From positions 2,480,001 through 2,544,000 of the forward strand of contig NZ_UPHU01000001.1 of NCBI RefSeq assembly GCF_900566075.1: DNA of 64,000 bases. Reading direction: 5' to 3'. Source of the stretch: Mycobacterium pseudokansasii (GTDB taxonomy: Bacteria; Actinomycetota; Actinomycetes; Mycobacteriales; Mycobacteriaceae). Shown one piece after another: positions 33,034 to 44,414 of the stretch. Every line of letters begins with the position of its first letter. Positions within the stretch are counted from its first letter, which is position 1. The notes beneath the pieces are model-generated. The model did not search any database. It was not told the DNA's origin and was given only the letters and a program-made list of their open reading frames with translations. The translations under genes were made by a program, and so were the position numbers.

Positions 33034-33114
33034 TCAGTCCGAGATTTCGTCGACGGTGAACCAACGTGACGAACGCGGGTCTTCTTCCTCGTGGAACAGG
33101 CTTTCGTAGGACAT
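33034..33114 (-). CDS. 26-residue peptide gene, copy A of a small-protein family
   Basis: ATG 33114 to TGA 33034 encodes 26 residues, preceded by GGAGG four bases upstream. The peptide begins MSYESLFHEEEDP and ends WFTVDEISD. It aligns without gaps with the 26-residue product of 38422-38502: Ser2, Glu4, Leu6, Phe7, Glu11, Pro13, Phe19, Val21, Asp22, Ile24 and Asp26 agree. It lies downstream of the truncated cupin gene on the same strand. No function is known to me. It is too short for usual gene calling; the case rests on the ribosome site and the family likeness. Confidence 0.6.
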   Translation of the reverse strand: MSYESLFHEEEDPRSSRWFTVDEISD

Positions 33115-33238: not shown

Positions 33239-33610
33239 TCAGCGACCGGAATGGGCGACGACGACGACCTCCGCGCGCTCGTCGCCGACCGCCCGCAAGG
33301 TGTGGCCGACCGACGCGTCGAAGTAGGCGCTGTCGCCGGTGTCGAGTGTGATGGTCTGGTCGCCGTAGTCGAGTTCGACACTGCCGGTGTGTACGAACAC
33401 GAACTCCTGGCCGGCGTGCTCGGGATGGGGATCGTCAGCGGCATCGCCGATAGGGCGAACCAGGAACGGCGACATGGACTTTCCCAGCAACGTCGACGCC
33501 AGCGCCCGATAGCGTCCCCCTACCGGGCCGGCGCGGTCGCTTGCCCGGTCGACGGTGATCTTCTCTTGGGCCGTCTCGTCGGAGAACAGCCGCCCGACAT
33601 CGGCGCGGGC
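33239..33610 (-). pseudogene. Cupin-domain regulator remnant, 5' end deleted
   Basis: The minus strand encodes the C-terminal half of an XRE-cupin-type regulator: DVGRLFSDETAQEK linker, then a cupin barrel with HPEHAGQEFVFVHTGSVEL and GDSAYFDASVGHTLRAVGD, ending HSGR at 33239. The N-terminal helix-turn-helix part is missing. At about 33605-33615 the sequence switches to the class II aldolase on the other strand, which lacks its own 5' end. A deletion across a divergent promoter explains both. Confidence 0.75.
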
Positions 33611-34201
33611 GGTGATCTGCGGCTGGGCCTGGGGTTCGACGAGATCACCGAAGACAACCTGCTGCTCGTCGACGAGGACCTCAACGTCCTGCACGGAGGC
33701 GGTATGGCCAACCCCGCCAACCGTTTTCACAGCTGGATCTATCGGGCGCGTTCCGACGTGCACTGCATCGTGCACACCCACGCCTTCCACGTGGCGGCGT
33801 TGTCGATGCTGAAGGTTCCGCTGATCGTGTCGCACATGGACACCACGCCGCTCTACGACGACTGTGCATTTCTCGCCGACTGGCCGGGCGTTCCCGTCGG
33901 CAACGAGGAGGGCGAAATCATCACCGCCGCAATGGGTTCCAAGAAGGCCGTGCTGCTGGCTCATCACGGACAGGTGGTGGCCGGGGCCAGCATCGAAGAG
34001 GCGTGCTCGCTGGCGGTGCTGATCGAGCGTGCCGCCAAATTGCAGCTGGCCGCCATGGCCGCCGGAACCATCGCCGAGCTGCCCGAGCAGCTGGCCCGAG
34101 AGGCGCACGACTGGACGCTGACACCGGCGCGCAGCCGGGCCAACTTCGGCTACTATGCCCGCCGCGCCCTGGCGCGCCATCCGGATGCACTGAGTAGCTA
34201 A
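33611..34201 (+). pseudogene. Class II aldolase/adducin family protein, 5' end deleted
   Basis: From LGFDEITEDNLLLVDED to the C-terminus this is a class II aldolase with the zinc ligands in HCIVHTHAFHV and LAHHGQVVAG. The N-terminal third, with the phosphate/anion loop, is replaced by sequence antisense to the cupin gene. The joined frame has a start codon at 33251 and is open, so a chimeric protein is formally possible, but its first 115 residues would be nonsense. Followed after 51 bp by a DapA-family gene, likely a former sugar-acid or hydroxy-acid catabolic operon. Confidence 0.75.
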
Positions 34202-35792: not shown

Positions 35793-36845
35793 CTATCTGG
35801 ACTCAATCACCGACATCGTGCCGTCGAGGTAGCTCATGACGTACACGGTGTGGATGTCTGGGTCCACGGCGACCCCCCACGGGTACGTGCCGACGGCCAC
35901 AGTGGCCGTGACCGTGTGCGCCTTTCCGTCGATTACCCATAGTGTGGCGTCCTTGTCGTAGTTCGTGACATAGACGCTGTGGGTCCGGATCCACCGCAAT
36001 CTCCCACGGCTTCGTTCCGACGGACACGGTGGCGATGACAGTGTGTGTGGACCCGCCGATTACCGACACCGTGTCGTCGCCGCTGTTGGTGACCTAGACG
36101 GTGTGGGTTTCCGGATCCACCGCCACCCCGGACGGGCCGCTGCCGACGCGCACGGTGGCGGTGACGGTGTGCGTATTCCCGTCGATCACCGACACCGTGT
36201 CGTCATCGTTGTTGGTGACGTAGACGGTGTGGGTGCCTGGATCCACCGCTGCCCCGACCGGAGTGCCGCCGACGGGCACGGTGGCCGTGACCTTGTGTGT
36301 CTTTCCGTCGACCACCGACACCCTGCCGCTGACCGTGTGGGTGACGGCGTAGACGGTGCGGGCACCGGAATCGACCGCTACTCCGTTGAGGAGAGATCCG
36401 ACGGCCACGGTTGCGGTGACCATGTGCGTGACAGGCGCGGTCGATCCCGGTCCTGCCCCAGGCTTCGACGGTCCGGTAGTCGTGGTGCCGGCGCGCTCGT
36501 GGCCGGAGTTGATCACCGAAAACCCAAGCACCGCAAGCGCGCCCACAACAAGGAGACTCCCGGCAATGATGGCTACGCGCCTGACCTTGGCGTTCTTCCA
36601 AGACCCCCACACCTTCCGAGCCCACGACCCGATGCCGGACTCAGGGAGGTTCGCATAAATGATGCCGGCCGCGACCGATGGTGCCGCACCGATGATCGGG
36701 GCACCGCACTCTTCACAGAAAGGCTGGTTCACCGATGTCAGTGGCCCGCTGGGCAGAGAACCACAGCGGGCACGATCGGGGCTCCGCACTCACCGCAGAA
36801 ACGGCAGTCGTCGGGGTTTTGGTGACCGTTCTCGCACGTCACCAT
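35793..36845 (-). pseudogene. Zinc-ribbon, membrane-anchored YVTN beta-propeller protein, broken
   Basis: From ATG 36845: zinc ribbon CENGHQNPDDCRFCGECGAP, a frameshift near 36755, a second ribbon CEECGAP, one membrane helix (VAIIAGSLLVVGALAVLGFS), then YVTN/NHL repeats of about 42 residues (VAVDPGTHTVYVTNN, DTVSVIDGNTHTVTATV). At 36094 a TAG replaces the Tyr codon of HTVYVTN, and a further frameshift occurs near 36000; two more repeats follow to 35793. Three lesions make it a pseudogene. A 231-residue piece from 36789 to 36094 remains open. Confidence 0.78.
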
Positions 36846-37047: not shown

Positions 37048-37570
37048 ATGCTGACCGGCGGTCGCGACCCGACGCTCGCGCTTGCCCTCCGCCGCCGCAA
37101 CCATGTGCGACACCTCCGCCTCTGGCAGAAAGAGGGCCTGCGGCGGCGCGTGCACAGCCATCGCGAGTGGGCTGGCGTGTCGTCGGCGCCGGAAATGGTT
37201 GCCAATGCTCCGAAGGTGTTGTGGGCCATGGATTTCCAGTTCGACACCACCATCGAAGGTAAGTCCGTCAAGATCGCGTCGTTGCTCGATCAGCATACCG
37301 GCGAAGCGCTGCAGCGCTCGATCACCGCGGAGCGCCTGATCGAGGGAAGTGCGCAGGCGTTCGCCGCGGCCGGCGGGCTTCCGCCGCTGCTGCGCATGGA
37401 CAACGGACCAGAGTTGGTTTGTCAAGCGCTGCAAGAGTCTTGAGTTGCGCAACGATGGCTCTGCTGTATCCCGCCGGGGACGCCGTGGAACAACGGTCAT
37501 ATCCATTCGTTCAACAATCGGCTACGACGGGCGTGTCTCGACCGCAATCGGCCGCATTGTGCCAGCCACC
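37048..37570 (+). pseudogene. IS3-family OrfB remnant
   Basis: LWQKEGLRRRVHSHREWAG, LWAMDFQFDTTIEGKS and LLRMDNGPELVCQALQ are the DDE core of an IS3-type transposase; TGA 37441 ends the frame. In another frame CCIPPGTPWNNGHIHSFNNR continues the family, with the usual catalytic Glu before SFNN changed to His. No ends are recognised. Confidence 0.78.
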
Positions 37571-37622: not shown

Positions 37623-38309
37623 CTATTTCGTTCGTGGTGTCGCCACCAGCCATTCCGACGAGTCCGGGTCAGCGGTGTCTAGTCCCATCCCCACCTCTTT
37701 GAGCAAGGCTTTGAGTTCGTCGGTTGTCACGTGATGGGCTTCGAACGATTGGGTCAGTCTTTTGTCGTCGTAGTCCAGGGTGAACTCGCCAACGACGGTC
37801 CCGTCGTGGTTGGCGAGGATCGTCATCGTCTGAAGCATCTGACCATCGGACCGCTGGTAACTGCCCGGTGGTCGCTGTGCGAACCACTCCAATGGCCGCC
37901 ACTGGATGATGGCCTTGCCGTCCGGCTTGAGGTGGTGGGCGATGGTCGCCAGGAGGCGCCTGCGGAATTCGAGACCCGGGTAGTTGATCAAGCTGCTGGC
38001 CAGCAGGACGGCGTCGAATTTCTCGGCAAGCCGCAGGTGCTCGATGCGGGCTTGGACCGTTCGCCCGGGGCGGACGTGGGCAAGCATGTCGGCGGAGTCG
38101 TCCACCGCGGTGAGTTGATGGCCGAGTTCGGACAGCGGATTAGCGATTCGGCCGGCACCGGATCCCAGGTCCAACACCGAGCTTGCCGGGTTGAGCATTG
38201 CGGCAATGACCTGCACCTCGGCGTCCCCCGACACCCGGCGGTAGATCTCGACCACGCTGCCGTCGGAGGTTATCGGGCCGCCGGAACCCGGTTCGCCGCT
38301 GCTGGGCAT
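37623..38309 (-). CDS. Class I SAM-dependent methyltransferase
   Basis: A 228-residue Rossmann methyltransferase with motif I VLDLGSGAGRI at about 45-55, acidic loop LTAVDDSADML, motif IV FDAVLLASSLINYP and a C-terminal beta region. The acceptor substrate cannot be told. ATG 38309 has AGGACAGCAGG upstream; an in-frame TTG at 38408 is less likely. It is the last gene of a minus-strand series P450 (38649-39854), 26-codon peptide gene (38422-38502), methyltransferase, so it could act on the peptide or on a P450 product. Close family to generic Methyltransf_25 enzymes. Confidence 0.85.
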   Translation of the reverse strand: MPSSGEPGSGGPITSDGSVVEIYRRVSGDAEVQVIAAMLNPASSVLDLGSGAGRIANPLSELGHQLTAVDDSADMLAHVRPGRTVQARIEHLRLAEKFDAVLLASSLINYPGLEFRRRLLATIAHHLKPDGKAIIQWRPLEWFAQRPPGSYQRSDGQMLQTMTILANHDGTVVGEFTLDYDDKRLTQSFEAHHVTTDELKALLKEVGMGLDTADPDSSEWLVATPRTK

Positions 38310-38421
38310 GCGATGTACCTGCTGTCCTGTCGTGCGCCGCCGGGCCAGCGGGGATGATGCAGACCTGCCGATCAAATTCCCGCTGGCCCTATCGGCTAGT
38401 GGATCCAACCGATGGTCACCG

Positions 38422-38502
38422 TCAGTCGACGATGTTGTCGACGACGAACGAGATCAACGCGTAGGGCGTCTCGTGTGCATTGAACAAGAGCTCGTGGGAC
38501 AC
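38422..38502 (-). CDS. 26-residue peptide gene, copy B of a small-protein family
   Basis: GTG 38502 to TGA 38422 encodes 26 residues preceded by a strong GAAAGGAG seven bases upstream. It starts with SHELLFNAHETPY and ends SFVVDNIVD. It has the same length as copy A at 33034-33114 with 11 of 25 positions identical. It also resembles the C-terminus of the 67-residue product of 43125-43328 (HEVLF and FVADNIPD). It lies between a P450 and a methyltransferase on the same strand. It could be a precursor peptide for these enzymes or an independent small regulator; neither is shown. Confidence 0.7.
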   Translation of the reverse strand: MSHELLFNAHETPYALISFVVDNIVD

Positions 38503-41756: not shown

Positions 41757-43094
41757 ATGTCGTTTGTCATTGCGACGCCGGACATGGTAGCGCTGGCGGC
41801 AGCGGACCTCGCGGATATCGGCTCGGGGCTGACCGCGGCCAATGCCGCGGCCGCGGTCCCGACAAGCGGGTTGGTGGCCGCCGCTGCTGACGAGGTGTCG
41901 CAGGCAATTGCGGCGGTATTTTCCAGCTACGCCCAGCAGTACCAGGCGCTGAGCGCTCAGGTAGCCGCAGTGCAGGGCTAGTTCGTGCGGGCGCTGACAG
42001 ATGCCGGGAACGCGTACGCGGCCGCTGAGGCAGCAAATGTTTCGCCGTTGCAGACCCTGGAGTAATTCCTGCTTGGCGCGATCAATGGCCCTACCATCGC
42101 GGGCCGCCCCTTGATCGGTAATGGCACCAACGGGGCCCCGGGAACAGGGGAACCCGGTGGGCCTGGTGGTTATCTGTTGGGCAACGGCGGCAACGGCGGC
42201 TCCGGTGCCCCCGGGCAGGCCGGGGGTGCCGGCGGGGCCGCCGGATTGCTCGGCAACGGCGGGGCTGGCGGCGTCGGAGGTACCGGCGCGTCGGGCGGCA
42301 GAGGCGGTACCGGAGGGTGGCTGTGGGGTAACGGCGGTGCTGGTGGGGCCGGCGGGACCGGCGGCGGCGCCGGTGGCTCAGGTGGTAACGCGCTGTTCTT
42401 AGGCTTTGGTGGCAACGGCGGCCCTGGCGGGGTCGCGAGCGGATCCGGTAACGGCGGGGCCGGGGGGGCCGGCGGCGGCGGTGCACTCATCGCCATCGGC
42501 GGGGCCGGCGGCGCCGGCGGCGCCGCAACCACGGGAACCGGCGGTGGCGGCGGTCTCACCTTGGCCGCGGACTTCCTTGGGTTTGGCCTGTTTCACGGTG
42601 GCGCCGGCGGGGATGGTGGAATCGCCACCGGGACCGGTGGCATCGGCGGGGCGGGTGGCAATGGCAGTAGCATCACCGCGCTCTGGGGCTTGTACAGCGG
42701 CGGCGCCGGCGGGGATGGTGGGGCCGCCACCGGAACCGGCGGCACCGGCGGAAATGGCGGCAACGGGGGCTTTGCGACGGGGGCTGGGATCGGGTGGGGC
42801 GGGGCCGGCGGACATGGCGGCGCGGCTCCCACCGGTACCGGCGGCGATGGCGGCGCCGGTGCCGACGGCGGCGGCATCATCGGCTCGGGTGGCAACGGCG
42901 GTGACGCGGGTAGCGGCGTCGGTGCTGCTAACGGCGGCAACGGCGGCAACGCCGGAATAGCGGCCAACGGCATGTTCGCCCCGTCCGTCTACGGCAATGG
43001 CGGCAACGGCGGCAACGGCGTCAACGGTGGAAGCGGCGGCAAAGGCGGCAGCGCCGGCTCGCTCGGCACACCGGGACGGAACGGATCGCCGTAG
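41757..43094 (+). pseudogene. PE_PGRS protein with two in-frame stop codons
   Basis: One continuous frame of 445 codons: PE domain from [20 protein letters not shown], the linker VSPLQTLE, the GRPLI motif and a PGRS domain of Gly-Gly-Ala/Asn repeats to 43094. It is broken by TAG at 41979-41981 and TAA at 42063-42065. Both fall where related proteins have Gln, so each is one C-to-T change (CAG, CAA). A 74-residue PE-only peptide can still be made. No frameshifts are present in a repeat that is prone to them, so loss seems recent. Confidence 0.85.
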
Positions 43095-43124: not shown

Positions 43125-43328
43125 CTAGTCGGGGATGTTGTCGGCGACAAACGCGAAGAAGCACGCCGAGTGGATCGAGGCGTGTGTCTCTTGAAACAAG
43201 ACCTCGTGCGTTATCGCGGGTGTGCGGCCGCCCTCGTCGTGCCCGAGGACAGCACCGGCCGCGACGCCCATGGCGGCAATGGCGATCCCGGCGCCGACCG
43301 GCTTGAGTCCGATCTTGCGATCCGTCAT
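43125..43328 (-). CDS. 67-residue membrane peptide, relative of the 26-residue family
   Basis: ATG 43328 with AGGAG six bases upstream encodes 67 residues. An N-terminal hydrophobic segment (AGIAIAAMGVAAGAVLG) is followed by a polar linker and a C-terminal block THEVLF...FVADNIPD that mirrors the 26-residue peptide of 38422-38502. No known family. It lies alone between the PE_PGRS and the PanE-like gene. The hydrophobic part may be a signal or membrane anchor, putting the conserved block outside the cell. Confidence 0.7.
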   Translation of the reverse strand: MTDRKIGLKPVGAGIAIAAMGVAAGAVLGHDEGGRTPAITHEVLFQETHASIHSACFFAFVADNIPD

Positions 43329-43544: not shown

Positions 43545-44414
43545 TCAGCCCGGGCCGTCGCTGGCCGCTGCCAACAGCGGCACCACGACGTCGCTGATCG
43601 GGGTCGCCAGGCCGTGGGCGCGGGCCTTGCGGACGATCACGCCGTTGCGCAGGTCCCATTCCAGGCGCCGACGAGCTTCCCGGTCGGCAAGGATCGAGGT
43701 GCCCATGTCCTCGGGGGCCGACCGGAACAGATTCACCATCTCCTCGACTGCGTCTTCGCCGAGCCGGGCACCCTCGGCGCGCGCCACCGTCAGGCATTCG
43801 GCGACGTAGCGGCGCGACAACGCAGCGACGTCGTCGCGGCGGAACATTCCGGACCGTCGCCCCGACAGTGCCATCAATCCGGCCAGCGCGTTGAGCACCA
43901 GCTTGCGCCACAGCACGGTGGTGAAATCGGGATCGCAGTCCACCCGGGCGCCCGCGCCGCGCAGCAGCTCGGCCAAGGCTTCCGCCGCCGGCCCGGTCGG
44001 CAGAACCAGTGCGGCCTCGCCGCGCAACCGCACCCAGCCCTCCGGCTGAGTTTCGGCGGAAAACCATACGCTGCCCGCGACGACGGTCGACGACGGGCAG
44101 TGCGGCTGCACCTGCTCGACCTGTTCCACCCCGTTCTGCAGGACGGCCACCACGGTGCGCTGGTCGCACAGCCGGGACAGCCAGCCGCGTGCGTCGGAGT
44201 TCTGCGTGGCTTTGACCGTCAGGATCACCACCTCGACCGGGCCGCCGATCTCGGCCGGGTCGGTGTGGACCGGACCGGGTACCACGATGGGGTCCGCGCC
44301 GTCGGGCCGCAGTTCGATACCTCCCCGGGGGGTGTGGCCGCACAGCAGCACCCGGTGGCCGGCCGCGTGCAGCAGCGCGGCCACCGTCGTGCCGACGGCG
44401 CCGGGGCCGATCAC
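43545..44414 (-). CDS. Ketopantoate reductase (PanE/ApbA)-family protein (Rv2573)
   Basis: A 289-residue NADP-dependent reductase-like protein: Rossmann motif [22 protein letters not shown], the C-terminal helical domain with the catalytic-type Lys in [11 protein letters not shown], and [10 protein letters not shown]. In pantothenate synthesis PanE reduces ketopantoate; whether this homologue of Rv2573 does so is unproven. GTG 44414 is the only start between an upstream in-frame TGA and the Rossmann motif, leaving almost no residues before the first strand, so the start may be damaged. Confidence 0.85.

Follow-up and report, generated by a model that had tools for sequence, protein, structure and literature searches.

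Candidate RiPP precursors of 26 residues in Mycobacterium pseudokansasii, members of a scattered peptide family associated with YcaO-TfuA

Small peptide genes of the window and their neighbours

The analysed window is a stretch of 64,000 nucleotides from Mycobacterium pseudokansasii (contig NZ_UPHU01000001.1, positions 2,480,001 to 2,544,000), whose genome (G000) comprises 6,425,786 bases in 2 contigs. Two small frames on its minus strand, pointed out earlier from the letters alone (the sequence-only reading), were found as claimed. Peptide 1 (38422..38502, minus strand) is a frame of 26 codons and a stop, encoding VSHELLFNAHETPYALISFVVDNIVD; it begins with GTG and is preceded, at a distance of seven bases, by the ribosome site GAAAGGAG. 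Its paralogue, peptide 2 (33034..33114, minus strand), encodes MSYESLFHEEEDPRSSRWFTVDEISD (26 codons, ATG start) and has the sequence CGGAGG four bases 5' of the start codon; close relatives occur in genomes G182, G115 and G081. Aligned without gaps, the two products have in common 11 of the 25 positions that follow the start (S2, E4, L6, F7, E11, P13, F19, V21, D22, I24 and D26), as had been reported, and they score 53.8 and 43.3 bits, respectively, against the family profile described below. Translation of these frames is predicted because of the ribosome sites and the constraint observed within the family. Peptide 1 is considered a putative RiPP precursor.

On the minus strand the order of genes is P450, peptide 1, methyltransferase: a cytochrome P450 gene (38649..39854, minus strand; 401 aa) is located upstream of the peptide, and a class I SAM methyltransferase frame (37623..38408, minus strand, as called) downstream. 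An integrase-core (rve) fragment, whose Pfam match falls just under the cut-off, adjoins the methyltransferase on the opposite strand (37048-37443). A seemingly incomplete beta-propeller-like frame with weak Pfam matches is found at 36094-36789 (minus strand); a longer relative of it (428 aa) comes after the methyltransferase in G182 (L054 4999-6285).

The neighbour of peptide 2 is a remnant of an XRE-cupin regulator gene, comprising the cupin part only (33239..33612, minus strand; the upper coordinate is approximate), as judged by eye from comparison with L042 6068-6592. Full-length relatives of this regulator gene in other genomes are located directly upstream of a family peptide. The XRE-cupin regulator and class II aldolase genes, divergent from each other and placed together at 33239-33700, both apparently lack their 5' parts, the aldolase matching model positions 68-259 only. 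Fuller versions of both genes were called in L042 and L054, and the region between them may have been lost from the window by deletion.

A third copy of the family (43125..43214, minus strand; ITHEVLFQETHASIHSACFFAFVADNIPD) matches the profile and has no standard start codon at family position 1; it is probably decayed or uses an unusual start. The frames on its two sides are panE-like (43545-44414) and glycine-rich (42111-43094), the latter PE_PGRS-like by eye. G115 and G098 contain similar copies, and the related copy of G137 (C90:17841) does have a standard start.

The peptide family: distribution, sequence and constraint

With a single peptide as query, the genome of origin returned only the query itself. 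A profile was begun with three peptides and iterated, and 396 genomes of the genus were searched with a three-sequence and then a 50-sequence profile at a cut-off of E up to 0.001. Family matches were found in 25 of the 396 genomes (1 to 21 per genome); a first, looser search (E up to 5) had returned 195 genomes, mostly with E near 1. The refined profile gave 163 matches in the fetched loci of these 25 genomes, all of at least 21.6 bits, the scores not being out-of-sample since the profile was built from its own matches. The best reversed-residue small ORF reached 14.2 bits. Nine further peptides of at least 21.2 bits were present in later-fetched loci (172 in total); per genome, the number reaches up to 23. 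Two of the 163 matches are partial, one of 17 residues at a contig edge (G115 C61) and one of 21 residues (G243 C103), and three (in G000, G115 and G098) show no standard start where family position 1 falls; for the G115 and G098 copies the P450 label is doubtful.

Chance similarity of the two window frames was thus rejected by the reversed-sequence control (14.2 versus at least 21.6 bits). The likeness that the sequence-only reading had judged to exceed chance is borne out further by G015 (L003/L041), in which a 65% identical peptide occupies the same order, P450, peptide, methyltransferase, between different outer flanks. The family appears to be confined to one genus: in an order-wide search (397 genomes of 85 genera, E 0.01) it was detected in 1 genus and was absent from the 84 others, and a spread beyond the genus was rejected on that basis. 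No such ORF was found beside methyltransferase relatives in other actinobacteria, either by a ribosome-site scan (L086, L087, L088, L090 and L091) or with the profile (L086-L092). At E up to 0.001, no NCBIfam model was matched by either of the window peptides.

The family consensus is M[SAN]HE-x-LF-x-E-x-E-xx-Y-x4-F-xx-D. In the alignment, which took in 142 different sequences of the 163 matches, positions H3, E4, L6, F7, E9, E11, Y14 and F19 are conserved, while positions 8, 10, 12-13, 15-18, 20 and much of the tail are variable; 106 of 134 peptides end in E or D. The shared length of 26 residues, on which the sequence-only reading had placed weight, proved typical (97 of 163) and not fixed, 156 of the 163 peptides having 25-31 residues. 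Its E-x-P element did not hold as a family pattern, as proline stands at position 13 in just 16 of the 142 sequences. Since the N-terminal half is the more conserved, a division into leader (N-terminal) and core (C-terminal) appears plausible.

Judged from nucleotide substitutions, the family is under purifying selection: pN/pS ranges from 0.11 to 0.51 across eight ortholog-like groups (pairwise values from short sequences, the pairs not being independent) and is 0.50 over 489 looser pairs; the first half of the peptide 2 group, taken alone, gives 1.50. Thus the homologues and the low dN/dS that the sequence-only reading would have counted as support were both found.

Tandem runs of up to four peptides occur. 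Runs of three to four are located in L134 (G023 C25), L051 and L052 (G137) and L053 and L196 (G240), and some of their members are near identical, others differing in their C-terminal halves. Such runs, as read from the sequences, suggest local duplication and diversification. A relative of peptide 2 in G098 (C1:639067; L159) has a frame that continues far beyond the usual end, forming an open frame of 128 residues.

Gene neighbourhoods and putative local tailoring enzymes

Five enzyme types recur within 3 kb of the 163 peptides, in counts that rest on a home-made ORF caller by which some genes were missed: (i) YcaO (47, of which 46 on the same strand, in 18 genomes), (ii) TfuA (39, 38 on the same strand, 15 genomes), (iii) P450 (34, 30 on the same strand, 19 genomes), (iv) methyltransferase (31, 29 on the same strand, 16 genomes) and (v) FAD monooxygenase (16, 14 on the same strand, 11 genomes). 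Identities were assigned with Pfam on representatives (PF02624 for YcaO, PF07812 for TfuA), and the names patatin and sulfatase, used for other neighbour clusters, were given by eye. Sorted by their nearest genes, 28 peptides belong with YcaO and TfuA, 18 with YcaO, 10 with TfuA, 18 with a methyltransferase, 13 with a P450, 9 with a P450 and a methyltransferase (in 8 genomes), 12 with an FAD monooxygenase and 2 with a methyltransferase and an FAD monooxygenase, leaving 53 with none of these. The context of the family is thus conserved, as the sequence-only reading had hoped to see; that reading proposed no function, and the most frequent partner, YcaO-TfuA, lay outside its view.

It might be argued that the peptides are small unmodified proteins spread by duplication, and that their association with RiPP enzymes reflects hot spots of accessory genes. 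The 53 peptides whose nearest genes include no enzyme of the five types fit this idea, as does the integrase-core fragment of the window. It is nonetheless improbable, considering that YcaO and TfuA rank first and second among the neighbour clusters, almost all co-directional with the peptide, and that TfuA and peptide co-occur genome by genome (see below).

The placement of the peptides relative to the enzymes varies: in many loci they are 5' of YcaO and of P450 genes, and in others 3' of FAD monooxygenase or methyltransferase genes. This bears on the role of peptide 1: a small frame that has a good ribosome site and immediately precedes the methyltransferase could be read as an attenuator, i.e., a leader peptide that regulates the gene after it. 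Because family members are also located 3' of methyltransferase and FAD monooxygenase genes, next to one another in tandem, and at some distance from such enzymes, we rejected this role, and both halves of the peptide hold residues conserved across loci; we assign attenuation a very small probability.

In six genomes (G006, G071, G081, G144, G227 and G251) two family peptides flank one methyltransferase gene, and in five of them (G227 excepted) an XRE-cupin regulator gene is located upstream. The group to which the window belongs has a split layout: the P450 is accompanied by the methyltransferase and one peptide, and the XRE-cupin gene, of which G182 has a full-length and the window a truncated version, by the second peptide. 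Because of these two-peptide loci in relatives and the split layout, the two peptides of the window are probably a separated former pair that flanked one methyltransferase.

The window methyltransferase shares 92-93% identity with those of M. persicum, M. innocens, M. ostraviense and M. gastri. In all ten named loci whose methyltransferase is at least 63% identical to that of the window, a family peptide precedes the match by no more than 180 bases, and two more (L075 and L076) have one within 360 bases; in the remaining 17 of the 29 named loci, the more distant ones, the profile detected no family peptide. In a structural model built from 18 sequences (mean pLDDT 80.8), residues 1-45 are below 50; because of this low confidence and of a methionine at residue 34 common to all eight aligned relatives, the real start of the protein may be at residue 34. 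The closest solved fold of this model is that of CypM, the cypemycin N-terminal methyltransferase (PDB 7wzg; Foldseek E 4.6e-17, TM 0.69/0.74), which ranks second by PDB sequence and shares just 19% identity with the window enzyme. The other close folds belong mostly to sugar and small-molecule methyltransferases, and for this reason peptide N-methylation, as indicated by the model, is a lead and no more. Among NCBIfam models the best was that of the daptide RiPP methyltransferase (NF041820), which remained below its cut-off (63.7 of 175 bits).

The window P450 resembles common bacterial natural-product P450s, e.g., PikC and PksS. P450 genes are abundant in the genomes studied, and those adjacent to peptides belong largely to two conserved sites, whose enzymes are about 31% identical to each other. 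In L048, L125, L147, L187 and L213 a peptide followed by a P450 gene has a ribosomal-protein operon on one side and a sulfatase-like gene (named by eye) on the other, an arrangement kept in several genomes. Strict coupling of P450 and peptide was rejected, since a 66% identical P450 is encoded in G026, which is outside the 25 peptide genomes.

A short precursor beside a P450 gene is also the arrangement of the cittilin and biarylitide pathways, in the case of cittilin with a methyltransferase as well, and their precursors carry a C-terminal aromatic core motif (MxYxx or YxYY type) for the biaryl crosslink. Peptide 1 resembles them in its adjoining P450. It differs in that its family is linked to YcaO-TfuA, and no aromatic core for such a crosslink is present at its end, which reads FVVDNIVD.

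YcaO-TfuA and proposed modification in trans

TfuA was detected above the Pfam cut-off in 26 of the 396 genomes, i.e., in the 25 peptide genomes and in G380; weak matches under the cut-off were obtained in G025 and G278, both without the peptide. In G380 the YcaO gene is in three pieces and TfuA is aligned to residue 439 of the query only, and a family peptide was detected neither within the 19.9 kb around TfuA nor, at E 0.001, in the genome as a whole. For 30 chosen genomes (18 with, 1 broken and 11 without), an aspS tree requires 3 changes of the label; by this tree the co-occurrence is mostly a matter of shared descent with few independent events, and the hypergeometric P value was set aside because of the few independent changes.

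The window genome contains YcaO at 4 places (one of them a piece with stops) and TfuA at 3 (one a piece). The YcaO encoded beside a peptide in this genome has MJ1094 as its best solved structure (65 bits, versus 35 for E. coli YcaO and 24.5 for LynD). MJ1094 makes thioamides. Peptide 1 is not adjacent to such a pair, its nearest TfuA being approximately 457 kb and its nearest YcaO match approximately 449 kb away, while the same genome has a YcaO-TfuA-adjacent relative at C1:1247366. Among all 172 peptides, 57 have a listed TfuA or YcaO at a distance of up to 8 kb, and 112 are beyond 12.5 kb or on another contig; only some of the YcaO positions entered this count, nine peptides entered it at rounded places, and contig breaks inflate the "other contig" category (e.g., G010, with its sole peptide at a contig edge). 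In ten near-closed genomes the corresponding numbers are 12 and 36 of 50 peptides.

In G000 one YcaO-TfuA pair is aligned over its full length, and nothing is detectable where relatives carry the precursor; in G243 the neighbouring precursor of such a pair is a 15-residue piece ended by a stop. Both genomes have intact-looking peptides elsewhere. These pairs are suggestive of service in trans and fall short of proof, because each genome has a second YcaO-TfuA pair with a peptide beside it. A case against a simple trans reading is G098, whose single YcaO-TfuA pair is aligned full length beside a 15-residue piece of the precursor, and whose other three copies are atypical (a 22-residue frame, a copy without a standard start and the one continuing in the 128-residue frame).

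G098, with a full-length pair retained despite damaged-looking peptides, is also relevant to the view that the window copies are precursors modified solely by the local P450 and methyltransferase, in the manner of cittilin or biarylitide, YcaO-TfuA serving adjacent members only. The location of peptide 1 between these two genes on one strand (147 and 14 bases away), together with the P450 and methyltransferase class of 9 peptides in 8 genomes, accords with that view. It fits less well, however, with leader-like residues identical to those of YcaO-adjacent members, with the finding that none of the 396 genomes has a peptide (E 0.001) without TfuA, and with the full-length pairs of G000 and G243 that have no intact neighbouring precursor; we consider modification by the local enzymes alone unlikely.

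The explanation that we favour, and regard on the sequence evidence as probable, is that the 26-residue genes encode RiPP precursors, found in one Mycobacterium lineage only within the sample searched; YcaO-TfuA, encoded at another place in the genome, would thioamidate them, and local enzymes would tailor them. The N-terminal half (about M-S-H-E-L-L-F-x-E-x-E-x-x-Y) would act as a leader recognised by the distant YcaO-TfuA pair, which would turn at least one backbone amide of the C-terminal half into a thioamide; in the window, the product would then be N-methylated by the CypM-like methyltransferase next door and hydroxylated or crosslinked by the adjoining P450. Thioamidation is proposed because of the gene linkage and the protein families. 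Trans action on the window peptides is a prediction, against which the distances of about 457 kb (TfuA) and 449 kb (YcaO) from peptide 1 have to be weighed; methylation and oxidation by the window neighbours are likewise predicted. That the cellular product is a secreted or metal-binding small molecule is a guess.

More tentatively, with a confidence slightly short of even, we propose a genome-wide combinatorial system in which one or a few YcaO-TfuA pairs serve up to about twenty leader-sharing precursors in trans, many of the scattered copies having their own tailoring enzyme (P450, CypM-like methyltransferase or FAD monooxygenase). If so, each cell would make differently decorated thioamidated peptides, and environmental and opportunistic species would hold a new reservoir of them, with up to about twenty precursors per genome. 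Most of this system would be invisible to the mining of YcaO-TfuA neighbourhoods, as a search only beside a modifying enzyme would miss most precursors. The proposal also raises the question of whether one YcaO-TfuA pair accepts all precursors. To our knowledge, few RiPPs are known from mycobacteria, mycofactocin being an example.

Parts of the arrangement have precedents. In the RiPPER survey, which used flanks of 12.5 kb for TfuA and of 8 kb on each side for peptides, many mycobacteria are described as carrying YcaO-TfuA, and the largest peptide network is theirs (Santos-Aberturas et al., 2019; PMC6511847). Like the members of this Network 1, the YcaO-TfuA-adjacent peptides of the family are short and mycobacterial and would fall within the 8 kb search, and their identity with Network 1 peptides is likely. 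To that extent the novelty claimed by the sequence-only reading is reduced: the family is real, and its YcaO-TfuA-adjacent members probably overlap Network 1 (PMC6511847). In contrast, the window peptides and most others (112 of 172) are more than 12.5 kb from YcaO-TfuA or on another contig, and the genes named by RiPPER as usual near the mycobacterial loci include a type III PKS and a sulfotransferase but neither a P450 nor a methyltransferase (PMC6511847). In several of the 26 TfuA genomes, one TfuA locus has a type III PKS (PF00195) match at a distance of roughly 15-27 kb, and no sulfotransferase (PF13469) was found within 50 kb of the listed TfuA in the 9 genomes searched. In the openly accessible papers searched, no description of scattered mycobacterial precursors, and thus of the scattered majority of the family, was found; its YcaO-TfuA-adjacent members were probably glimpsed in RiPPER (PMC6511847).

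As in the known thioamidated RiPPs of the YcaO-TfuA type (thiovarsolins and the thioviridamide group), PF02624 and PF07812 genes are found beside short precursors (PMC6511847); the present family differs in having scattered precursors with local tailoring enzymes. A parallel in organization is offered by the prochlorosins (ProcM/SyncM), which are described as having many precursors scattered over the genome, with a conserved leader and a variable core, and few modifying enzymes (PMC10783134). The family described here has likewise up to 23 leader-sharing peptides and 1-6 TfuA matches per genome, whereas prochlorosins are products of lanthionine chemistry in cyanobacteria, and here YcaO-TfuA is combined with a local P450, methyltransferase or FAD monooxygenase.

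Some parts of the system in the window genome are, as judged from their sequences, decaying: a partial YcaO (C1:2967418-2968341; L094), close to genes that look transposase-like by eye, and a TfuA split into two frame pieces (C1:5521475-5521792; L275), with no YcaO match in the 18 kb around it. M. szulgai and M. angelicum are listed with six TfuA clusters each (PMC8120280), and six TfuA matches each were found in G137 and G240.
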